A stretch of 64,000 nt of DNA from assembly GCF_022026155.1 (NCBI RefSeq), contig NZ_CP085041.1, positions 342,306 through 406,305 of the forward strand, given 5' to 3'. Under the pieces are notes generated by a model. It searched no databases, was not told the origin of the DNA, and saw only the letters and a program-made list of their open reading frames with translations. Positions 12,920 to 23,933 of this stretch are shown piece by piece. This stretch comes from Dissulfurimicrobium hydrothermale. Lineage in GTDB: Bacteria > Desulfobacterota > Dissulfuribacteria > Dissulfuribacterales > Sh68. Within the stretch, counting starts at the first letter, position 1. Each line of letters opens with the position of its first letter. A program made the position numbers and the translations under genes.

Positions 12920-13737
12920 TGTCCGGCCCTGCACACAGAGGCAGTCTATTTATATGCATTTTATCTCTTTTGGGGGCAATCACACCAGTTGCACTGTGCA
13001 TGGCTGGACCATCAAATACAAACGGTGCTAAGCCTGGTCTCGGCCTTTATGATGTCATAGTAAAGGAAAACCTCTTTGATCCATTACGCGGCCAAGGCGC
13101 ACAGAATGAGGCTGATGAAAAGGCCAGGTATGCCAGTGAACAGGAGCTGATCAATCGCTATCTGGTCTATGGAGTAAGTATAATCAACGGCAGACGTCAG
13201 GCCTTTATAAAGGCCGTGAACACCCCCCAGACAAGTCATCCTGTGTTCCCATTGGCCGGTCCACAGTTCCCCGCCATGAATCAGGCTGCCCAGGCAGAGA
13301 GGCCGCATCCTGTGAAAATAGGGGATTCCCTGGAAGGTTGGCGTATTACGGCCATAACGCCCCACGGGATAGATCTCGAGCTCAGGGGGAGGAGTGTCCA
13401 TCTCGCCATCTTCGGGCCTGAAAAAGACGAACGAAGGGCGACAGCTCCAGTCGGCCTGCAGACCCCTCAAATAAAACCTGAGGCCCCTTCACCACCTCAA
13501 CCAGGTGGCGAGCAGCCCAAGGAAGGCGGGGCGGCAGAAGGCCAATCCGTTCAATCGCAAGGTCCGCTGCAACAAGCCAGCCCTTCATCTCAGCAGCCGG
13601 TTCAGCCCGGGCAGCCCGTGCCCCCGCCGCAGGCACCATCATCTATTCAACACGGGCCAAAGGCCACTCTTCCACCCCAAACGCCCGCCCTGCCAGTGCC
13701 TGGTTCATCTCTTCGTGACCTGTTGCTCGGGCGGTGA
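12916..13737 (+). CDS. gspC: GspC-like inner-membrane component with Pro/Gln-rich tail
   Basis: The last gene of the gsp operon, overlapping gspD by four bases. The 273 residues start with a hydrophobic segment (about 10-32), followed by VIVKENLFDPLRG and a homology-region-like beta domain (YLVYGVSIINGRRQAFIKAV, then HPVKIGDSLEGWRITAITP). This is how GspC/PilP proteins contact the secretin N0 domain. The last ~100 residues are almost entirely Pro, Gln, Ser and Ala and replace the PDZ domain of classical GspC. The function is inferred from layout and position. PilP-like is an equivalent description. Confidence 0.72.
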   Translation: MMSGPAHRGSLFICILSLLGAITPVALCMAGPSNTNGAKPGLGLYDVIVKENLFDPLRGQGAQNEADEKARYASEQELINRYLVYGVSIINGRRQAFIKAVNTPQTSHPVFPLAGPQFPAMNQAAQAERPHPVKIGDSLEGWRITAITPHGIDLELRGRSVHLAIFGPEKDERRATAPVGLQTPQIKPEAPSPPQPGGEQPKEGGAAEGQSVQSQGPLQQASPSSQQPVQPGQPVPPPQAPSSIQHGPKATLPPQTPALPVPGSSLRDLLLGR

Positions 13738-13911
13738 TAGTTGTTCCCGTTTGCTCAATCATACCCCCTCCGATGGGGAGCAGGTTGTTTTATATAGGGA
13801 ACAGCTGGATGGAGTAAAGATGGAGTAAAGGCATAATAGCCGAAGGGTTTATATATACCCCAATTTGGAAGTTTCATGTAGAACCCCCCTGACTTGGATT
13901 CCGAGAGGATG

Positions 13912-14421
13912 TCAGTGATGAATAGTCAGCTCATGGCCAACGCTTTTAAGGATTTCTTTGGCCTTTGCCAGATCATCCCCGGAGCCATGGACTATCAGCA
14001 GGAATTTGTCAGATCTTATAACCGTCTCATAATTGATGATGCTGTCCTTTGGAATACCGATGCTGTAAAGGCCCGCGCCAAGGGCGCTCAACCCTCCGGC
14101 TGCCACTGCACCCTCCAGCCCGCCGACAATGGCGGAGACAAGCGGTCCGGCTACAACAACCGGACCAATTCCAGGGATCCAGAAAAATGCTGCGCCGAAT
14201 AGAATACCCCACAGTCCGCCCCAAAAGGCACCCATTTTGCCCCAGTACTTCATGCGGTCACCGGCATTGTAGTAGCCGACGACGTGCTCATCGGTGTGAT
14301 AGTCTTTGCCCACGATGGACAGCTTTTTCATATCAAAGCCGGCCTTCTGTAATTCCTTCACAGCCTCTTCTGCATCGACATGGGCATCAAAGACTGCAAC
14401 CGCTGCATTTTCATTTGACAT
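13912..14421 (-). CDS. General-stress-type protein with central glycine-rich hydrophobic region
   Basis: A 169-residue protein starting MSNENAAVAVFDAHVDAEEA. The start is ATG 14421, with AAGGAGAT just upstream; the frame extends further but without a ribosome-binding site. The N-terminal part (AVKELQKAGFDMKKLSIVG) and C-terminal part (DKFLLIVHGSGDDLAKAKEI) form a ferredoxin-like domain of the general-stress/YflT or DUF1269 type. The middle (about 55-115) is a Gly-rich membrane-inserting region with glycine-zipper character. It stands alone and convergent with the gsp operon. A role in envelope stress is inference from the family only. Confidence 0.75.
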   Translation of the reverse strand: MSNENAAVAVFDAHVDAEEAVKELQKAGFDMKKLSIVGKDYHTDEHVVGYYNAGDRMKYWGKMGAFWGGLWGILFGAAFFWIPGIGPVVVAGPLVSAIVGGLEGAVAAGGLSALGAGLYSIGIPKDSIINYETVIRSDKFLLIVHGSGDDLAKAKEILKSVGHELTIHH

Positions 14422-14698
14422 AATCGATCTCCTTTGCATGATTTTGGTTGGCACTTGACTCGGATTCTTTCAGCCGCCCCATCGCAGAGGCCTTTTTTTG
14501 TCAAGTTTCATGAATATCCGGCAAGTCTTGTTCCCCAAGGGGAGAGGGGCTGCTCTGAATCCACGTCTCCATGGAGCCGCTCTGGAAATTGCATATTCCT
14601 CCTTTGATAGGCCTCCTTTATTTTTCCCTCTCCCGACAGAAGGGGATCAAAGGGAGGATTAGTAGTGCCGTGCAGCCTCTGATCTGACAAAATATGGG
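14422..14698. other. Intergenic region, no gene seen
   Basis: This 277-base gap lies between two minus-strand genes. It contains GC-rich runs of the kind CCCTCTCCC/GGGGAGAGGG that can pair with each other, and a T7 run at about 14493-14499, but no open frame with coding character and no convincing promoter. A short 64-codon frame here has no conserved features. Confidence 0.5.
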
Positions 14699-15193
14699 TC
14701 AAAATGTTGCATTAATGACCCCGCCACCAGATAGCTGGCACTCGCCCTGCCCCCCGCCAGCCATGCCGCTTCGCGGATCGACAAGATTGAAGCGGCAGCG
14801 CATATGGCGTCCGCCGCTAGTTTCAAGATTAGCGATTACCTTTCCGCTATAGTACGTAATGAACTGTCTCACGCTATATCTATAAGGATAAGGCCCGCCC
14901 CAGTACGGTGGCCAGTCGCACCAGCCTTCGTTCCAACCGTCCCACATCGGAACAAGGGCCTCGCGCGTCGCCTGTCGGGTAATCTGAAAGAACCGGCCTG
15001 TATATATAGCATCAGGCAGTATGGCCGTCATCGTGCCGGACAGCCCACCGTCCATGCTTTTCCATTTAAACAAAACGGGCTCGGCGGATCCCCCCTTGGC
15101 AATCAGTTCTCCGCGCCCCATGCCGATAGTGGCGCAGCCAGCCAGAATCATTAGCGTCAGCAAGCCAGCCGCAATCAGTTGGTATAATTTCAT
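14699..15193 (-). CDS. Putative outer-membrane or periplasmic lipoprotein, 164 aa
   Basis: The start is ATG 15193 (MKLYQLIAAGLLTLMILAGC), with AAGGAG upstream. The lipobox L-A-G-C is at about residues 18-21, so the mature protein is lipid-anchored. The rest contains two related blocks, MDGGLSGTMTAILPDAIYTG and a C-terminal MRCRFNLVDPRSGMAGGG, which suggest a beta-rich domain. A Trp/Tyr/Pro-rich segment (WDGWNEGWCDWPPYWGGPY) lies between them. I do not recognise a named family. It lies between two other small envelope-type genes on the same strand, perhaps expressed with them under stress (inference). Confidence 0.75.
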   Translation of the reverse strand: MKLYQLIAAGLLTLMILAGCATIGMGRGELIAKGGSAEPVLFKWKSMDGGLSGTMTAILPDAIYTGRFFQITRQATREALVPMWDGWNEGWCDWPPYWGGPYPYRYSVRQFITYYSGKVIANLETSGGRHMRCRFNLVDPRSGMAGGGQGECQLSGGGVINATF

Positions 15194-15206
15194 TGGGTTC
15201 TCCTTG

Positions 15207-15230
15207 AGGGGACCTCTAAAAGAGGTTCCC
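15207..15230 (-). promoter_or_regulatory. Inverted repeat in the leader of the lipoprotein gene
   Basis: The arms GGGACCTCT and AGAGGTTCCC (one extra base in the second) surround a three-base spacer, directly upstream of the ribosome-binding site of the lipoprotein gene. It could be an operator or an mRNA hairpin that affects initiation. No T-run follows, so a terminator is less likely. Confidence 0.4.
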
Positions 15231-15262
15231 ATGATATGATGCACATCCAGGATATATGCACC

Positions 15263-15913
15263 TTATTTCTTTCCGGGCAGGATTTTTTTACCAAACCACG
15301 ATATGGCGTCACCCATATTTTTAAGGCCATTACCAACCTCTTCAGGTACGTAGCCCGTGCCTTCGACAAGTTTGCCAGAGATCTCGCGCCCCTCTTTAAT
15401 GGCCTTGGATGCGCCGCTTTTAAGTTTATGGCCTGACCAATCTGCAGCCTGTTCCATATGCTCTGCCGCTGAGTTAAGGGCCTCGCCGGTCTCTTTTGTC
15501 TCTTTTTTTGCCCAGGAATCGGTCGCCTTGACATAGTAATTACTGGCTACCGCGTGCTCAGCCCTTGAAAATGCACTTTTCAGCTCCTTGTCTGATTTTA
15601 CAGCCCCCTTTTCAACTGAATCTGCCAGCTTGTCCAGTTCCCGGGCAGAGGCCGTCAAGGTCTTTTTACCTTTATCACCGGCAGATTCCGCCTCCTTCTT
15701 TAAAAAATCCGCACCCTTTCGTATCTCCGCGGCGGATGCCTTGAAATCCTTTTTAATAAAGGACTCATGGGCCTTTTGAAAGTCAGCCCCTGGCTCCGCT
15801 GTCTGGCCTTGGGCCACCTGTGCAGTCTGGGAATACGCCACAGGGGTAAAGGCTGCCTGGTTAAAGGAAAGAAATGCAAATAAACCTGCCATCAAAAAGA
15901 TCCTGTGCCTCAT
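15263..15913 (-). CDS. Periplasmic helical protein of unknown function, 216 aa
   Basis: The N-terminus is a clear signal peptide (MRHRIFLMAGLFAFLSFNQA...AYSQ). The mature part is Lys/Glu/Ala-rich and almost entirely helical, with heptad-like repeats (FIKKDFKASAAEIRKGADFL, SARELDKLADSVEKGAVKSD). This suggests a helical bundle or coiled coil in the periplasm. The C-terminus is basic (KKILPGKK). The pattern is reminiscent of YfdX-like periplasmic proteins, but I cannot confirm that. GGAGG precedes the ATG. It is upstream of the lipoprotein gene on the same strand. Confidence 0.72.
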   Translation of the reverse strand: MRHRIFLMAGLFAFLSFNQAAFTPVAYSQTAQVAQGQTAEPGADFQKAHESFIKKDFKASAAEIRKGADFLKKEAESAGDKGKKTLTASARELDKLADSVEKGAVKSDKELKSAFSRAEHAVASNYYVKATDSWAKKETKETGEALNSAAEHMEQAADWSGHKLKSGASKAIKEGREISGKLVEGTGYVPEEVGNGLKNMGDAISWFGKKILPGKK

Positions 15914-16035
15914 GTTAATACCTCCTTATGTTTTTGGTTGTCTTTTAGTGTCAGCCCAACAAGCCAGGCCTTAAAATATACGAATTTTGATTGATCTTTT
16001 CCTGTTAAGTCCGATCACCTCCTCGATAGTTTATT

Positions 16036-17919
16036 TTAATGGTATCTACCCCCGCTCAATGCCCTTTCGTACCTGGCTTTTTCTTCAGCGTATGCCCTCT
16101 TATCTCTTATCTCGGGGATGGAAAAGTTTCCCATTAAACTCCACTTGCCTGACAGGGGCTTAAGTCCCTCAGGGATCGTTTTTCCATCGGCCCCTGAAAG
16201 GTTCTCGATCCTCAAACCCTTTTTGTCAGCCACAATCGTAAAACTGCCTGACAGGACATCTTTATAAGCGGTATCAGGTTTTCCCATCCATTTGTAATCC
16301 ACAACAACCCTTTGCGCCCCTCCTGGTCCGTGGCAGCTCCTACAGCTTCTGGCCTTTGTTGTCGCGTGAGCGACCTTGTCGATATTCAACCAGGCCATGA
16401 CCGTGCCTTCATCCTTGCTGCCTTCATAGGTTCCCGTGACAGCAAAGGCATCATCGGACGGATATTCCCTCTTTATGTTTACATCCGGCTTGTTCCTGAA
16501 GATGAGCTTCCCTGTCAGCTTTATCTCCTCCTTCTTAACATTGGTTGAGATGTGCGGGACTATGTGATAGGGGTTCCACTGGCCTTTCTTATCCTTAAGG
16601 ATGATGGGGGCCATTGCATTAACCGTATAAAATGGATGCCTGTCCAGTGGGGTCTCCAGCCCGAATTTTTTTCCAGGCGCCCAGAAGTTAAAGGCATAGC
16701 CTGCTACTAAGGGGGTATGGCAGGCCTCGCAGGAGAGATTCCTGTGAATTCCCTTCTTATGGCTGGATACCTCTTGCTTATGACATTTTGCACACTCCAT
16801 GGGCTCGGGACTCCTTATCTGATCCCCCATATTGTGGGTTTTGTGATTCTGATCATGACAGTCCACGCAGGTTATGCCTTTGGCAAAGTGTATGTCCGGG
16901 GTCTCAATATATTTTTTTGAGTTTTTGTTCCGCAAGTCAGCCACAGCCTTCCTGGCAAAATCCCCCTTTATAAATCCATCTCCCCTCCGTCTTTCCATGG
17001 GGCCTGCATGACATATCTGGGCCCTGCCATCGCCCATGCACGAAAGCACCGTAGGTTTAAAGGAAAAGGTATGAACGCCCACCTCTTTTGGGTTGCCTTT
17101 ACTGTCTCTGGCCTCTTTATTAAAAGGACTGTAGTGACAATCCAGGCAACCTGCATGGCAGGTATTGCAGTTTCTCTGGTTGGAGAACGCCTGTTCTTTG
17201 CCGAGATGGGCGGTGCTGACCGCATTGTATTTCTCCATATTTCCGGTAGTAAAGCTGTCATTGTCGGGCTTTGCAGTGGCCGCGGTCCAGAGGCCGCAGG
17301 ACTGAGGACCTGTGGGGCCGACCCAGGTCGCATACTGGCTCTGGGTCAAGGCCAGGCCCATTGCTGTCTTCATATAGCTTTTTACAGCCTCCGGGTGGCA
17401 GGTTCCGCAGGTCTTCTCAGCGATGCCCGGATTAAAGGCGATAGTATTGATATCCTTGTCATGCCATTGTATAATAAATACCCTTGGATTAAGCACAGAC
17501 CCTCCATTCCCAGCGGTTACCCTTGGAAAAAGGGCGTTGCCGACAAAGTCACCTTTCAGCTTCAAACCTTTGATGGATTCCCTGTCTTCTCCCTTGAGCT
17601 CTCCTCGGCACTGCAACAATCCCCTTTTTCATAACCACAGCTAATCCCAAGATGCCCTTATGTGCCCCCTCCATGGTATTGTCATTGGGATTCCCCTGAT
17701 GACACATCTCGCATGTTGCAGGCATGCCGGTCTGCTTTTCCACTGCCTCCTGGGTTATGGTGAAGTCCGGATAGCCCAACTCCTGCATCTTTTTTCCATT
17801 GCCATGGCACTGAAGACAGGTGCTGGTTTCTTGAGGCCCCTGTTGGGCAGTGGTCTTATGACTGATAATAAGCAATGCGCCTATATTAGCGCCAGCCCGA
17901 ATATTACTTGTTTCTTCAT
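16036..17919 (-). pseudogene. Nonahaem c-type cytochrome gene broken by two frameshifts
   Basis: Read across two frameshifts this is a secreted multihaem cytochrome with nine CXXCH sites: CLQCH, CEMCH, CGTCH, CNTCH, CLDCH, CVDCH, CAKCH, CEACH and CRSCH. The first break is in the signal peptide (MKKQVIFGLALI reaches TAG near 17882; the frame resumes at GALLIISHKTTAQ). The second is at AAAAAGGGGA near 17625, after GAHKGILGLAVVMKKG. The bulk (17619 down to 16036) is intact. A CX8CH element (CMGDGRAQICH) may be an odd tenth site or a damaged one. It is the last gene of the tsdA/cydA-like operon. The breaks could be sequencing errors in short repeats or real decay. The first two haem sites and the GAH-K/Q-G motif resemble the cytochrome at 28831. 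Confidence 0.8.
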
Positions 17920-17940
17920 CTCTTTCCCTTTTTTCTTGAA

Positions 17941-19506
17941 CTATTGAAAGCCTCTTTTCTTATTCACTATCTTCACCAGCCCCCATCTGACCTCTTCCGG
18001 AATATCCCCAAAGGCCGGCATCATGGTGCCGGGATAGCCGTTTGAGATTATGTCAAACGTCCTTTTGGGCGAAAGGCTGTAAGCCGTAAGGTCGGGGGGT
18101 TGGGGTTCGAGATTCTTGGAAGACTTTGCGCCCTTTCCATCCATGCCGTGACACCCGGCGCAGGTCTTGGCATAGGCGCCCTGCGCCTGCGCCATCGCCT
18201 GTTTTGAAACATTCGCCAAAACCGCCTCGGGCGGATCTAAGACCTTCCATCTTTTGTCCATGTAATCCATCAGTGAATCGAGCTTGTCCCTGTCAAAAAA
18301 GGTAAAATAGGGCATGGCTGAACCATGGACGCCATCCTTTAAAATGCCATAGAGATACCCGCGGGTTGTCCTTATGGCTGATATGTCTTCCGGAGGTATG
18401 GCAAGCCCCTTTGCCTCAACACCCTTTCCGTCCCCATTTTCCCCATGGCAAAAGGCGCAACTTCTGGCGTATATGGTCTTGCCATTGTCATAGACCACCT
18501 TGAGGACCGCCCCATATCCAGCCAATGCCTGTTGTTCAAAAGGCCTGAGCGCATTTCCGTATGCTACGGCGTTTGCCTCAAGCCTTTTCTGAAAGGGGAT
18601 AAGCGCCCTGTCCTGCAGAAACTGCCTGGTCAGGAGCATCGAGACCAGCACGAGCATCAAGACCGGAAGGATGATCTTGATATTCAGAAGCAGACCCCTT
18701 TCCGCCGCGAAAAAGACGAGCCACAGGAGGAAAGATGCGGCAGCAATGCCAGTAAACAGATAGATAATGACGGGATGACCTGGGTTTGACGGAAATACTC
18801 CATAGAGCATTATGCCAAGGATAAACTGGAGCAAAATCCCGGCTACAAGCCATCTCTGAAGGGCTTTTCTTTCTGTTTCGTCCTTTGCGGTAAAAAAGTA
18901 ATGGAATCCTGCCCCGAATACAACGCCCGCGCCAAGTACATGGAGATATCTGAACAGCCAGCGGATGGCCAGCGCTCCGGTCAGCCGGTAGCTGTCGCTC
19001 GTTATTTGTGGCCATTTATCAGGATTTTCAAACGCTGTAAGGATGGCGGAAAACAACCCGGGCACGGCAAGGAGAAATATAAGGGCGACCGTACCTAATG
19101 CCAGATGGATATATCTGTGCAAATATATTCTGTGCCCCAGGGCGTCAAAGGCAAGGAAGGCGACAATCAGAAACACGATCACCGACATCCAGTACGGGGC
19201 GAAGAGATTCACGGCGGTGAAGAAAGGGACCGTGTAGCCTACCTGGATGAGGAGCAGGGGCGCGACCCCCAGGACCACTGCCAGGCTCTTGTGCGCCATA
19301 AAGGTTTTAAGGATCCTTTTATCGAATCTGAGTTCCTTCGCGCGGCCGCCGCACTGGGAATCAATGAAATAGTAGATGGCGAGGATGGCCGTTCCCAGGG
19401 TCAGAAGGACAAATAGCATGTGAAGTGTAAATGATGCGAAAAGGAGCCCCCTGAGCAGGGTTTGAGAGATGGGCGCAACCAGAAGGAGATCGGATAATCT
19501 ATCCAT
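17941..19506 (-). CDS. CydA-like membrane protein with two C-terminal c-type haem domains
   Basis: A 521-residue protein. The first ~300 residues contain eight or more hydrophobic helices. The opening TLHMLFVLLTLGTAILA resembles the helix of cytochrome bd subunit I that carries the haem b His (YHFLFVPLTLG in the classical protein). Further His residues lie in HRIYLHRYIHLALG and RYLHVLGAG. The last ~170 residues hold two cytochrome c domains with CAFCHGENGDGKG and CAGCHGMDGKG, followed by candidate Met ligands in GSAMPYF and GTMMPAFG. It overlaps the preceding CydA-like gene by eight bases. The pair recalls two-CydA-type members of the bd superfamily. The role as second oxidoreductase subunit is inference. 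Confidence 0.82.
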   Translation of the reverse strand: MDRLSDLLLVAPISQTLLRGLLFASFTLHMLFVLLTLGTAILAIYYFIDSQCGGRAKELRFDKRILKTFMAHKSLAVVLGVAPLLLIQVGYTVPFFTAVNLFAPYWMSVIVFLIVAFLAFDALGHRIYLHRYIHLALGTVALIFLLAVPGLFSAILTAFENPDKWPQITSDSYRLTGALAIRWLFRYLHVLGAGVVFGAGFHYFFTAKDETERKALQRWLVAGILLQFILGIMLYGVFPSNPGHPVIIYLFTGIAAASFLLWLVFFAAERGLLLNIKIILPVLMLVLVSMLLTRQFLQDRALIPFQKRLEANAVAYGNALRPFEQQALAGYGAVLKVVYDNGKTIYARSCAFCHGENGDGKGVEAKGLAIPPEDISAIRTTRGYLYGILKDGVHGSAMPYFTFFDRDKLDSLMDYMDKRWKVLDPPEAVLANVSKQAMAQAQGAYAKTCAGCHGMDGKGAKSSKNLEPQPPDLTAYSLSPKRTFDIISNGYPGTMMPAFGDIPEEVRWGLVKIVNKKRGFQ

Positions 19507-20878
19507 GATTTTCGTCTCCGGTTAAAGGGACAAGACGGGACGGGTCGTGTAACTTGACCGTTCCTTTTGAGAGTTCATAGAGAAAGCCGGCCAATGTCCT
19601 TCGCTCATCCTCTGTCCCCGAAAAAGGTGGCATGAAGGGGACCATGTCGCTGGTATGGCCGAGGAGCACAAATATTCCGTCCTCTGTACGTCCTTTTACC
19701 CTCTCTGCGATGTCGTTTATCCCGCCGATGGTGTGGCAGGTCGAGCAATTGCGGGCGAAGAGATATGCGCCCTGAACCGCTGCCTCCTGATTGCCAGGCG
19801 CATGGCTGAACCAGAGGTCGTTTTTAAGCATCCCGACTTTTTTGAGAAGCGGGGTCTCGCTTATGAGCACCTGGTTTGCATACATATATCCAGGCATGAG
19901 ATACGGCCCCCTTATGAACTCCCTGATCCGTTCAAATTCCGTCACAAATGTCATCGCTGCCAGGAGCGCAGGGATGATCAGCACCTTCGCCAGGACTGCC
20001 GGACCTCTCCATGAACCCCCGAATGAGACCATGGCCGTTACAAACAACAGAAGTACGCCGCCGGCGTTTGCATACCAGAAGATCTGTGGCTCCTGCGAAA
20101 GGCGGGAGGTGAGGACTGCAAATATGGCATGGGTCTTAAACGCCGAAGGGATCACGGTAAAATACCACCAGGTGAACAGAATCGTGGCAGAAAATGAAAT
20201 AATCGCGGCCTTTGCGAAAAATCCAAGCGCCTCCTGTCTGAAGGCGCTATCTCTTCGAGTAAAGAGGAGAAACGCCGAAGAGAATAGCGCCCCGATCGAA
20301 AGACCGGCGCTGATTCTTAAAAAGAGCTGCGGCGTATAACTGGGATTTAAAAATGCCGACCAGAAACCCCTGTCCCACGGCCATCCATCTGATGTGAGCA
20401 TGAAGCCTAAAATGCCTGTAATGAGCGTGGCGGATATAAAGGCGAAAGAGAGATAGGCCACGCCGAGAAAGACATGCCTCCTCTTTTTCTCACCCTGCCA
20501 TTTTCCCCAGGTAAAATAATAGGCAAGGATGAATATCACCTCGCAGGTAAAGACCATCCATTCGATAAACCAGGGCCAGAAGAAGACCCTGAGCATTGAC
20601 CCTATGCCGCGAGGCGAAAGGGCGCTTGGGATAAACCATATCCCAACCCCTGTCACCGCCCCGATCCCTGTAGTGATGATGATTGTGAATTTTAGGAAAT
20701 CCCTTGAAAAATCTTCCCAATCCCTGGACGCCCTTTTAAGCCCGAGATATTCGCTTATGACGATGAACAAGACCGCGCCTATGGCAAGGCCATGGCTGAT
20801 GATTACATGGAGGACGGCATCCAGGGCTATAACCATGCCGGTTCCAAGGTATGGGAACTGAAAGATGGGGAATTCCAT
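19499..20878 (-). CDS. Cytochrome bd subunit I (CydA)-like protein fused to a c-type cytochrome domain
   Basis: A 459-residue protein with about nine hydrophobic helices. It keeps CydA features: a His in VIISHGLAIGAVLF and the conserved Glu pair in FIEWMVFTCEVIFILAYYF, which in bd oxidases sits by the active-site haems. I see no quinol-binding GRQPW-type Q-loop. Instead the C-terminus carries a cytochrome c domain (ARNCSTCHTIGG, with MVPFMPPF supplying a possible Met ligand). This points to c-type electron input or output rather than quinol oxidation (inference). It follows the tsdA-like gene after 12 bases and overlaps the next CydA-like gene, so the three are one operon. Confidence 0.85.
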   Translation of the reverse strand: MEFPIFQFPYLGTGMVIALDAVLHVIISHGLAIGAVLFIVISEYLGLKRASRDWEDFSRDFLKFTIIITTGIGAVTGVGIWFIPSALSPRGIGSMLRVFFWPWFIEWMVFTCEVIFILAYYFTWGKWQGEKKRRHVFLGVAYLSFAFISATLITGILGFMLTSDGWPWDRGFWSAFLNPSYTPQLFLRISAGLSIGALFSSAFLLFTRRDSAFRQEALGFFAKAAIISFSATILFTWWYFTVIPSAFKTHAIFAVLTSRLSQEPQIFWYANAGGVLLLFVTAMVSFGGSWRGPAVLAKVLIIPALLAAMTFVTEFERIREFIRGPYLMPGYMYANQVLISETPLLKKVGMLKNDLWFSHAPGNQEAAVQGAYLFARNCSTCHTIGGINDIAERVKGRTEDGIFVLLGHTSDMVPFMPPFSGTEDERRTLAGFLYELSKGTVKLHDPSRLVPLTGDENHG

Positions 20879-20890
20879 ATTTTAGCCCCC

Positions 20891-21766
20891 TTATTTTGCT
20901 TTTGCAGTGAAATGGAGTCTGGGTCTGGTTATGACAAACGCCGCCACATCCAGGGCGTCTTCGACTGAGAGGTCGGGGTTTCCCAACGGCATGTTGAAAT
21001 GGGCAAAGGCGGCGAGGTTGGCCAGTTTCGCCATTCCTGCGCCGTCATTAAAGGAATCATTGCCCCAAAGAGGCGGTGCAGCCGAAGACCCCTGGCCGCT
21101 TGTCCCATGGCATATGGCGCATTTTTGTGCAAAGACCTGTGTCCCCTTTGTCTCATCAGGCTTATGATTGCTCTTCAGGTGTTTCAGGCCCGGCCATGGG
21201 ATTTTTCCGTAGATGGGGAGCCCCTTTGATATCCACTGATAGTAGGTGACGATGGCCGTCATCTCCCTGCTGTCTGCCGGCAGGGGTCTGCCGTTCATGC
21301 TCCGCTGAAAACAGTCGTTTGTCCGGGTAATGAGGTGAACCGCGTAATTTTGTCTCTTTTTGTAGGCAGGGTAGGTGGCCCCTACCCCAACAAGCGAGAG
21401 GCCTCCGTTTTCCCCGCCCCGGGTTACGCCCCCCTTGAAGTGACAATTTGAGCAGGTGAGCTTGTTCCCAACGTAGCCGCCTGCATATTTTCTGGTATTT
21501 GTCAGGATATTGTGGCCGAGCATGACTGCATCTTTTATGTCTGCGGGCGCGGATTCAAGGGACGGAGGATTGAAGGCGGCGACACCTTCCACCTTTACCG
21601 CCGCCATGCCTGGCTGGACGGTTGTCCCAGTCTTTTGATGGGTGGCTAAGTCTCCGGACGTCTCGCTAAAGTCTATAAACCTGGTGAATATAACTGAAAG
21701 GGCGCCGCCTGCGATGGCGAAAATGATGATGATTCCAAGGGCGAATATGATCTTGTTCCTTTGCAT
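20891..21766 (-). CDS. tsdA: TsdA-like dihaem cytochrome c (thiosulfate dehydrogenase/tetrathionate reductase family)
   Basis: TsdA enzymes interconvert thiosulfate and tetrathionate in the periplasm. The 291 residues begin with an N-terminal signal or anchor helix, followed by haem site 1 CSNCHFKGG. Next is TRTNDCFQRSMNGRPLP, the TsdA/SoxA-like motif whose Cys is the unusual axial ligand of haem 1. Haem site 2 is CAICHGTSGQG, and FAHFNMPLG offers Met as a candidate distal ligand. The start is ATG 21766 with GGAGGAGG. It is the first gene of an operon with two c-haem CydA-like proteins and a nonahaem cytochrome, which would take up the released electrons. A TATAAT-like -10 (21816-21821, minus) lies upstream without a good -35. 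Confidence 0.8.
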   Translation of the reverse strand: MQRNKIIFALGIIIIFAIAGGALSVIFTRFIDFSETSGDLATHQKTGTTVQPGMAAVKVEGVAAFNPPSLESAPADIKDAVMLGHNILTNTRKYAGGYVGNKLTCSNCHFKGGVTRGGENGGLSLVGVGATYPAYKKRQNYAVHLITRTNDCFQRSMNGRPLPADSREMTAIVTYYQWISKGLPIYGKIPWPGLKHLKSNHKPDETKGTQVFAQKCAICHGTSGQGSSAAPPLWGNDSFNDGAGMAKLANLAAFAHFNMPLGNPDLSVEDALDVAAFVITRPRLHFTAKAK

Positions 21767-21845
21767 AAAATCCTCCTCCTTCCAATGATATGGAATGCAG
21801 GCGGCTTAAGCAAGGATTATAATCAAAAAAAACACCTGCGCCACT

Positions 21846-21961
21846 GGTATGGCTGGGTTCGGCATCCCTTTTCCCGGCAGTGGACATCCTGTCCACAAGC
21901 CAGGCGGAGGCCATCCATGGCCTCCTTGTCGGGATGCCGAACCCAGCCATACCATGCATGG
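21846..21961. repeat. 116-bp multi-hairpin inverted-repeat element
   Basis: Perfect 23-bp inverted arms (21846-21868 and 21931-21953; sequence starts GGTATGGCTGGGTTCGGCAT) enclose two internal hairpins. These are GTGGAC/GTCCAC around a five-base loop (21880-21896) and GGAGGCCAT/ATGGCCTCC around CC (21906-21925). The 10-bp palindrome CCATGCATGG (21952-21961) adjoins the right arm. The whole can form a cruciform or branched RNA. It lies between the end of fabD and the start of the tsdA-like operon. It may be an elaborate terminator or a small non-autonomous mobile or REP-like element; no T-run follows. Confidence 0.85.
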
Positions 21962-21989
21962 ATAGTTGTGCAAGGGTCTTACCAAGATA

Positions 21990-22922
21990 TTATCTTTGAG
22001 AGATGCAGGCCTTCAGTCCTTCAGGGTCATCTATCTGGAAGACCCTGACCTCACCCTGGGGCAGGCACTTCTTTACTAGATTTGAGAGGACGTTTTTGGG
22101 CCCGGGTTCGATAAATTCCTTGACGCCGTCCCTGACCATGTTTGTCACTATTTCATACCATCTGACAGGCTCGCACATCTGCCTTGCCATGAGGCCTTTT
22201 ATGACTTCCGGGTCGTTTTCAGGCCCTGCCGTGACATTGCTATAGAATGGTGTCTTTGGCGGCGAAAATCTCACCTCTTCAAGCAATCTGGCGAATTTAT
22301 CCGCCGCATTTTTCATGAGCTGGCTGTGATACGCCCCCCCCACCTTGAGAGGTACGGCCCTTGCCCCCCTTTCCTTTACAAGCCCCGCAAGGGCGTCAAC
22401 GAGCGCCTTTTCGCCGGTCACCACTATCTGTTCAGGGCTGTTGTGATTCGCGGCGGCTATGACCCCCTGCAAGGCAAGGGGCTGAATGAGCCCGTCCAGT
22501 TCAGCCTTCTTGAGCCCGATGATAGCAGCCATCGCCCCGGGCCTCCTGGCCCCGGCCTCTTCCATGAGACGCCCTCGCGCCTGGACAAGCCGGAACAGAT
22601 CTTCAAGCCCAATGACCCCCGCGGCCCAGAGTGCCGGGTATTCGCCAAGGCTGTGACCGGCAACCGCGCCTGGCATGAGGCCGCTGTCCATCGCTGCCGC
22701 GGCGCAGACGGTATCTATCACCGTCAAGGCAGGCTGGAGATTTGCGGTCTTTGTGAGCTCATCCATCGGGCCTTCGAGACACAGGGTCTTCAGCGGAATG
22801 CCGGTTACGGCCTCCCCGATCTCAAATATCTCCCGCGCACGGGGAAGCGTCTCAAGGAAGGCCTTGCCCATGCCGATATATTGCGAACCCTGCCCAGGGA
22901 AGACAAACGCGGTCTTTTCCAT
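21990..22922 (-). CDS. fabD: Malonyl-CoA:ACP transacylase FabD
   Basis: Transfers the malonyl group from CoA to acyl carrier protein for fatty-acid synthesis, in the cytoplasm. The 310-residue protein shows the N-terminal FVFPGQGSQYIGMGKAF, the nucleophile motif GHSLGEYPAL with the active Ser, the catalytic His in AAANHNSPEQIVVTG, and VKVGGAYHSQLM in the region with the second His. The length is normal. Its start lies only three bases after the moaA stop on the same strand, so the two are co-transcribed. Other fab genes are not nearby. The start is ATG 22922, as in other FabD proteins. Confidence 0.95.
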   Translation of the reverse strand: MEKTAFVFPGQGSQYIGMGKAFLETLPRAREIFEIGEAVTGIPLKTLCLEGPMDELTKTANLQPALTVIDTVCAAAAMDSGLMPGAVAGHSLGEYPALWAAGVIGLEDLFRLVQARGRLMEEAGARRPGAMAAIIGLKKAELDGLIQPLALQGVIAAANHNSPEQIVVTGEKALVDALAGLVKERGARAVPLKVGGAYHSQLMKNAADKFARLLEEVRFSPPKTPFYSNVTAGPENDPEVIKGLMARQMCEPVRWYEIVTNMVRDGVKEFIEPGPKNVLSNLVKKCLPQGEVRVFQIDDPEGLKACISQR

Positions 22923-22925
22923 CGG

Positions 22926-23933
22926 TTATCCTCCTATCCTGGACATCGCCCGTGTGCAATGTGGGGTTTCGTCCTTAAGAGATATGATCCCCTTGGGTTT
23001 TTGGGCTATGGCCTCTTTCAGAAATATTTTGAGTTCATCATTCGAAATCCCGGCCCTGAGCCATCCCTTCAAATCTATCTCATTGTCTGAAAAGAGACAG
23101 AGCCTCAAACGGCCATCGGGCGTGATCCTGACCCGGTTACATGTGCCGCAGAAGTGGCGGCTTAAAGGGCTTATGAATCCTACGCTCCCCTTTGCGCCTT
23201 TAAGGCGGTAGATCATGGCCGGGCCCGAGTCTTTGCCCTGTGAGACAGGGATTAGATCACCAAGCGACCTCTCGACCATCTCTTTTATTGCGTCACAGTT
23301 CAGATGCCTTGATTTTTCCCAGGTGGTGGCGCTTCCTACCGGCATGAATTCAATAAATCTCACCTCAAGCGGAAGTTCGAGGCTCAGCCTTGCGAGGTCC
23401 ACTATTTCGTCATCGTTTACGCCCTTCATGGCCACGGCGTTCAGCTTGATCTTTGTAAAGCGGGTCTCTATGGCCTTTTCTATGCCCTGCCATACATTTT
23501 GAAAGAGATCTTTTCCGGTGATCTTCAGGAAGCGTTCGGGCTTAAGGGTATCGAGGCTTATGTTTATGTGTCTTACGCCCGCATCGAACAAGGGGGTCGC
23601 CATATCTCCAAGAAGGATGCCGTTTGTGGTAAGACAGACCTCTTTTATTCCAGGGATTTTGATCAGGCGGCCCGCCAGACCCTCCACCCCCTTTCGCACC
23701 AGGGGTTCGCCGCCGGTCAGACGTATCTTTCTCACGCCAAGCCCTGAAAAGGCATTGGCAAGCCTCTCTATCTCTTCATAGCTGAGGATGTCTTCATGGG
23801 AAAGCCAATTGACCTGACCGTCCCTCGGCGTGCAGTAACTGCACCGCAGATTGCATCTGTCTGTTATGGATATCCTCAAATAGGTGATTTCTCTCCCGTG
23901 TTTGTCCGAAAGCGCGGCGCTGGAGTCATTCAT
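22926..23933 (-). CDS. moaA: GTP 3',8-cyclase MoaA
   Basis: A radical-SAM enzyme that begins molybdenum-cofactor synthesis from GTP. The N-terminal cluster motif is CNLRCSYC within RISITDRCNLRCSYC, followed by KIRLTGGEPLVRKG. The C-terminal second [4Fe-4S] site reads FCGTCNRVRITPDGRLRLCL. The protein ends in Gly-Gly, which MoaA needs for activity. The 335-residue length is normal. It precedes fabD closely. The cofactor is required by the molybdopterin-dependent formate dehydrogenase at 47.5-51.6 kb. The start ATG 23933 has AGGG upstream. No other moa genes are in the window. Confidence 0.95.
   Translation of the reverse strand: MNDSSAALSDKHGREITYLRISITDRCNLRCSYCTPRDGQVNWLSHEDILSYEEIERLANAFSGLGVRKIRLTGGEPLVRKGVEGLAGRLIKIPGIKEVCLTTNGILLGDMATPLFDAGVRHINISLDTLKPERFLKITGKDLFQNVWQGIEKAIETRFTKIKLNAVAMKGVNDDEIVDLARLSLELPLEVRFIEFMPVGSATTWEKSRHLNCDAIKEMVERSLGDLIPVSQGKDSGPAMIYRLKGAKGSVGFISPLSRHFCGTCNRVRITPDGRLRLCLFSDNEIDLKGWLRAGISNDELKIFLKEAIAQKPKGIISLKDETPHCTRAMSRIGG

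Follow-up and report, generated by a model that had tools for sequence, protein, structure and literature searches.

What is a TsdA-like cytochrome doing beside two CydA-like proteins that carry c-type haems of their own? TsdA couples two thiosulfate molecules into tetrathionate at a Cys-ligated haem, and in Dissulfurimicrobium hydrothermale its putative gene lies directly upstream of two genes for proteins resembling subunit I of bd oxidases. The window analysed here is a 64,000-nucleotide stretch of this genome. Its first-pass annotation proposed a single operon of four genes, separated by 12, -8 and 21 bases, in which electrons from thiosulfate pass through c-haems into a bd-like complex or are returned to the quinone pool. 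The features concerned are the following.

20891-21766, minus strand: tsdA, 291 aa, predicted membrane-anchored TsdA-type dihaem thiosulfate dehydrogenase / tetrathionate reductase
19499-20878, minus strand: cydA1, 459 aa, bd-oxidase subunit-I-like protein with 8 TM helices and a C-terminal mono-haem c domain
17941-19506, minus strand: cydA2, 521 aa, second CydA-like protein with 8 TM helices and two C-terminal c-haem domains
16036-17919, minus strand: multihaem cytochrome c gene with a broken reading frame, 9 CxxCH motifs altogether, probably outside the module
21831-21954, minus strand: strong hairpin and genome repeat located between tsdA and fabD; its perfect arms are 24 bp long and a T8 follows

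The open reading frames of tsdA, cydA1 and cydA2 are all intact, with a gap of 12 bp between the first two and an overlap of 8 bp between the last two. The proposed operon therefore holds for these three genes, whereas its fourth member is frame-broken. This member had been described as a nonahaem cytochrome, but the ATG at 17919, 21 bases after cydA2, is followed 12 codons later by a TAG, and what remains of the coding sequence lies in one frame at 17549-17875 and in another at 16036-17619, which amounts to two frame switches. The gene is thus either a pseudogene or the bearer of assembly indels. A homologue in the sister genus (L117:1495-3291) is intact and encodes 598 aa with 9 CxxCH motifs; it sits on a different contig from the TsdA and CydA genes of that genome. 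Because the nonahaem cytochrome is broken here and unlinked in this relative, it is not a conserved partner and was discarded as a member of the module. No Rfam family matched the region 13500-23000 of the window, and promoter-like sites at the locus were no more frequent than in shuffled sequences.

The annotation of the first gene as a dihaem TsdA-like protein with a characteristic motif is borne out: in the protein encoded at 20891-21766, C152 lies within RTNDCFQRSMNG. The protein matches the SoxA/TsdA domain of Pfam (PF21342, 8e-12) and carries a cytochrome c domain, and its profile matches TsdA of A. vinosum (4WQC/4WQ7) over the full length, at profile positions 70-276 of 280, with an E-value of 1e-53, whereas SoxA-type dihaem cytochromes are matched at about 1e-6. 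A SoxA identity was rejected: the NCBIfam SoxA match falls well short of its cut-off, and the structure search favours TsdA. As reference residues we used the Cys ligand of haem 1 together with Arg109, Arg119 and Ser127 (A. vinosum precursor numbering), the thiosulfate-binding Arg and Ser residues being those named in PMC4423706. Equivalents of all tested catalytic residues are kept in the window protein (C152, R138, R148, S156 and M259); the haem-1 ligand C152 is found in 29 of 29 aligned TsdAs, as is the haem-2 ligand M259. The residue preceding M259 is Asn258, not Lys, and other members of the clade described below have Phe at this place. C. jejuni TsdA, which shares the Asn-Met surroundings of haem 2, is biased towards tetrathionate reduction (PMC5146829), and the sequence therefore leaves the direction of the window TsdA unsettled. 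Its N-terminus contains a hydrophobic helix (residues about 6-26). A hydrophobic stretch at this position is common to the aligned relatives and, by inspection, has no obvious cleavage site, which suggests that it is a membrane anchor.

Some of these relatives depart from the reference enzyme. Desulfovibrio-type TsdAs adjoining the trio in L005, L062 and L063 have Asn in place of the catalytic Ser, and those of L062 and L063 also have Lys in place of a catalytic Arg; the substrate may therefore not be thiosulfate everywhere. Fusions occur as well. In L034 (868-2226), tsdA is fused to an extra cytochrome c domain, giving a protein of 452 aa with three CxxCH motifs directly before cydA1. Proteins of 636-653 aa with four CxxCH motifs and a TsdA-like part are encoded near the trio in three loci (L053:11579-13510, L054:11618-13528 and L038:4563-6524), the one in L053 combining a MauG-type dihaem peroxidase with a TsdA-like dihaem part.

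Pfam recognises the membrane parts of neither CydA-like protein of the window. CydA1 has no match to PF01654 at E<=0.1, and a sibling from L004, 48% identical to it, matches at 2.3e-18. Profile comparison nevertheless links CydA1 with 5doq_A (E 1.6e-19), and Foldseek searches with its AlphaFold2 model (pLDDT 76.7) returned ten matches at E<=0.001, all of them bd subunit I (best 7oy2_C, E 7.6e-7). In the profile alignment H24 corresponds to His19, E106 to Glu99 and E113 to Glu107, while by motif E320-x-x-R-x-P-Y corresponds to E445-x-x-R-x-P-W of the canonical GRQPW region; this pattern was found in 74 of 77 CydA1s and in 21 of 21 canonical CydAs. Residues H24, E106, E113, R188, E316, E320 and R323 are invariant wherever the homologue sequence is present. 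The Glu pair noticed in the first pass is thus E106 and E113, invariant in 54 homologues, and the haem ligands, whose absence from an alignment would have counted against the proposal made there, are conserved (H24 and E320, along with E106 and E113). The c domain announced for this protein is represented by a single C-terminal motif, CSTCH at 378-382. The suspected lack of a quinol site agrees with the motif counts: a QPxKxAAxE-like motif is present in 21 of 21 canonical CydAs but in 0 of 77 CydA1s and 0 of 18 CydA2s, and the CydA1 model has just about 22 residues at the place expected for the Q-loop. An equivalent of the b558 ligand His186 is also absent from CydA1, Leu187 and Arg188 occupying its place. 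Judged from these alignments, CydA1 is a bd-type subunit with its predicted oxygen site kept and its quinol side gone. Since the b558 His is missing, electrons must reach the oxygen site by a path other than the one in known enzymes. Homologues of CydA1 in L006, L007, L008, L011 and L013 are single open reading frames of about 850-890 aa, and the one in L006 has additional c-haem motifs in its extra C-terminal part.

CydA2 has the two c-haem domains attributed to it earlier (motifs at 350-354 and 449-453) and is more divergent. Profile-profile comparison connects it to CydA1 with a probability of 93.9% (E 1.6e-7); directly against canonical CydA the match is weak (probability 8.4%, E 0.004). 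In Foldseek searches with the CydA2 model bd subunits again come on top, less strongly than for CydA1 (best 8b4o_A, E 7.9e-4). These comparisons identify CydA2 as a divergent homologue of CydA1. H29, H189, M290 and R294 are invariant, even among relatives that have no c-haems; H29 aligns to His19 and H189 to His186, and M290 is located in the helix that matches, by order, the helix of Glu445. The Glu99/Glu107 pair is absent, and of the oxygen-site ligands only the His19 equivalent is kept. CydA2 differs from CydA1 in its ligand set and probably holds a relay haem through His29, His189 and/or Met290.

We scanned 84,980 species genomes with a profile of the CydA1 alignment. Fifty-three loci were obtained, 35 belonging to the clade of the window and 18 more distant. 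A TsdA gene lies directly upstream of cydA1 in 32 of the 35 clade loci, at -4 to 40 bp (the exceptions are L048, L050 and L059), and in 0 of the 18 distant ones; cydA2 follows cydA1 in the clade loci on every contig that extends far enough. A maximum-likelihood tree built from 77 CydA1 proteins sets the clade apart by a branch of length 1.13 with a support of 100/100 (UFBoot/SH-aLRT), and TsdA is present for 33 of the clade's 36 rows, compared with 0 of the other 41. Linkage of TsdA, CydA1 and CydA2 far beyond chance is thereby confirmed. Pairwise identities of the three proteins correlate across 27 loci (r 0.91-0.95). This co-divergence shows that the three share a history, but joint transfer would have this effect just as selection for joint function would. 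Clade records are labelled Nitrospirae, Deltaproteobacteria, Desulfarculaceae, Desulfovibrio, Bilophila, Planctomycetota and others; the taxonomic spread is only approximate because labels of MAGs are unreliable. The clade has one cultured member, Desulfogranum japonicum DSM 18378 (L058). Outside it, CydA1 always has a c-haem and is usually followed by a CydA2-like protein with none or one; plasmid-borne relatives in Agrobacterium, Thermus and Methylosinus comprise CydA1 and a second protein and lack TsdA.

Six loci have a SoxB-like gene close to the trio, which in L035 overlaps cydA2 by 4 bp. SorA is found close by in four loci, accompanied in three of them by SorB (SorAB is a sulfite dehydrogenase). 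These neighbours give the module a link to sulfur oxyanions that does not depend on TsdA homology. The window genome itself encodes DsrA and one canonical CydAB; neither a haem-copper oxidase nor SorA was found in it, nor was a SoxB-like gene, in a search run without a positive control. The thiosulfate/tetrathionate couple (+180 to +198 mV) is unable to reduce menaquinone (-70 mV) (PMC9751629; a further potential is given in PMC9562282). The return of electrons to the quinone pool, one of the two routes initially suggested, is therefore disfavoured, and was set aside on the strength of the missing quinol motif and these potentials. By comparison with the O2 potential of +818 mV quoted in PMC9040806, transfer from thiosulfate to O2 would be strongly downhill.

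From the parts, the ligands and the linkage we infer that the module is a membrane-bound, quinone-independent thiosulfate:O2 oxidoreductase, a reading to which we assign a probability of about one half; direction, acceptor and complex formation, like the haem types and the physiological role, belong to this interpretation. In outline, the anchored periplasmic TsdA would join two thiosulfates to tetrathionate at Cys-ligated haem 1 and pass the electrons to the His/Met-ligated haem 2. From there they would move to the fused c-haems, one on CydA1 and two on CydA2, which would take over the role of the quinol site and of a free cytochrome c; as there is no quinol site, this is the simplest path from haem 2 of TsdA to the oxygen site of CydA1. 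The latter, a putative two-haem site with the His19 and Glu445 equivalents and the Glu99/Glu107 pair, would reduce O2 to water with cytoplasmic protons. CydA2 would replace CydB as the partner subunit, probably with a haem of its own. In hosts that carry DsrAB, the likely use would be microaerobic thiosulfate oxidation or oxygen scavenging beside the ordinary quinol-linked CydAB. More tentatively, all three proteins may form a single complex that couples the conversion of thiosulfate to tetrathionate directly to O2, involving neither quinone nor soluble cytochrome, with the ligands divided between an oxygen site in CydA1 and a relay haem in CydA2. The c-haem wiring of a TsdA/bd-like module, as first envisaged, thus gains from gene order across phyla, catalytic residues and oxygen-site ligands, and loses its nonahaem member.

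Several observations count against thiosulfate:O2 oxidoreduction, namely the C. jejuni-like Asn258-Met259, the Arg and Ser changes in L062 and L063, the many anaerobic hosts, the missing b558 His and the failure to find SorA or a SoxB-like gene in the window genome. The substituted TsdAs (Arg to Lys, Ser to Asn) would fit an O2 reductase that is indeed c-linked but whose TsdA-like subunit acts on another sulfur compound, such as a persulfide, a mixed sulfur oxyanion or a protein-bound thiol, and serves mainly as the electron-entry cytochrome; the SoxB-like and SorAB neighbours in some relatives likewise point to a wider sulfur-oxyanion chemistry. We regard this as unlikely, since the window protein and most TsdAs of the clade keep the Cys ligand and all tested thiosulfate-binding residues, and the preference for TsdA over SoxA-type structures spans 1e-53 against about 1e-6. 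Alternatively, the module might run in reverse, as a tetrathionate reductase to which the CydA-like proteins supply electrons from quinol. Such a reaction would be downhill, and both the haem-2 Asn-Met pair and the anaerobic life of the hosts are compatible with it. However, neither CydA has a quinol-binding motif, CydA1 leaves some 22 residues for a Q-loop and lacks the b558 His, and the invariance of oxygen-site ligands would be pointless, which makes tetrathionate reduction rather improbable.

We attach a similarly low probability to the proposal that the bd-like part reduces an acceptor other than O2, for instance NO, or merely relays electrons to other periplasmic cytochromes. Canonical bd oxidases handle NO as well, according to the account in PMC10839748, and papers on cable bacteria differ over a CydA homologue, some assigning it to electron transfer and others to O2 reduction; yet the full set of oxygen-site ligands (His19, Glu99, Glu107 and Glu445 equivalents) is invariant in CydA1. 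That the genes are merely neighbouring cytochrome genes with no functional coupling is hardly credible. The broken fourth gene, unlinked in a relative, would agree with it, but 32 of 35 loci show the same gene order, spaced by -4 to 40 bp, the three proteins diverge together, and such chance proximity is contradicted by a fully supported (100/100) clade with TsdA in 33 of 36 rows and in 0 of 41 outside.

Among known systems, the c-linked bd-like families OR-C and OR-N (Murali, Gennis and Hemp 2021), as described in PMC10839748, come closest: they have a CydA-like core with no quinol site, are thought to use cytochrome c and pair CydA with CydA'. The module would probably belong to this part of the bd superfamily, which it resembles by description in the missing quinol motif and the putative c-type donor. 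As far as that account goes, the module differs in that both subunits have fused c-haems and TsdA is a fixed upstream partner. TsdA and TsdBA (A. vinosum 4WQ7, C. jejuni, 5LO9) share with the module protein the dihaem organization, the Cys-ligated haem 1, the Arg/Arg/Ser set and the haem-2 Met; the module TsdA has an N-terminal anchor, Asn in place of the haem-2 Lys, and as partner a bd-like membrane complex rather than TsdB or a soluble cytochrome c. CydAh of cable bacteria is likewise a CydA-like protein bearing a periplasmic cytochrome c domain and has been proposed to reduce O2; unlike CydA1, it is reported alone, the passages of PMC13047784 devoted to it mentioning neither TsdA nor a second c-haem CydA. 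Canonical CydAB (qOR), encoded elsewhere in the window genome, has the same subunit I fold and active-site ligands, whereas the module lacks the quinol motif, Q-loop, b558 His and CydB. No pairing of TsdA with CydA or bd was found in the literature at the level of titles and abstracts, an absence that is not proof. TsdA and c-linked bd-like families are known; the fixed TsdA-CydA1-CydA2 combination, with c-haems on both CydAs and the ligand sets split between them, did not turn up in the literature found and is apparently new. The donors of bd-like families that lack a quinol site are uncharacterised, and a fixed partner of known chemistry would name one of them. With Desulfogranum japonicum DSM 18378 there would also be a culture in which to test the idea of a c-linked bd oxidase. 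If the reading as a thiosulfate:O2 oxidoreductase is true, relatives of sulfate reducers would be able to pass electrons from thiosulfate straight to oxygen, which matters for sulfur cycling where oxic and anoxic zones meet.

Finally, two further genes of the window recur near the trio in relatives. The YflT/ActD-like protein encoded at 13912-14454 has counterparts there in L035 and L033, and the small lipoprotein-like protein encoded at 14699-15244 has one in L035, the identities being about 67-69%. The hairpin at 21831-21954 consists of a 24-bp perfect inverted repeat with inner hairpins (dG -104 kcal/mol, z -10); it corresponds to no Rfam family, and its inner part recurs at several places in the genome with 73-88% identity.
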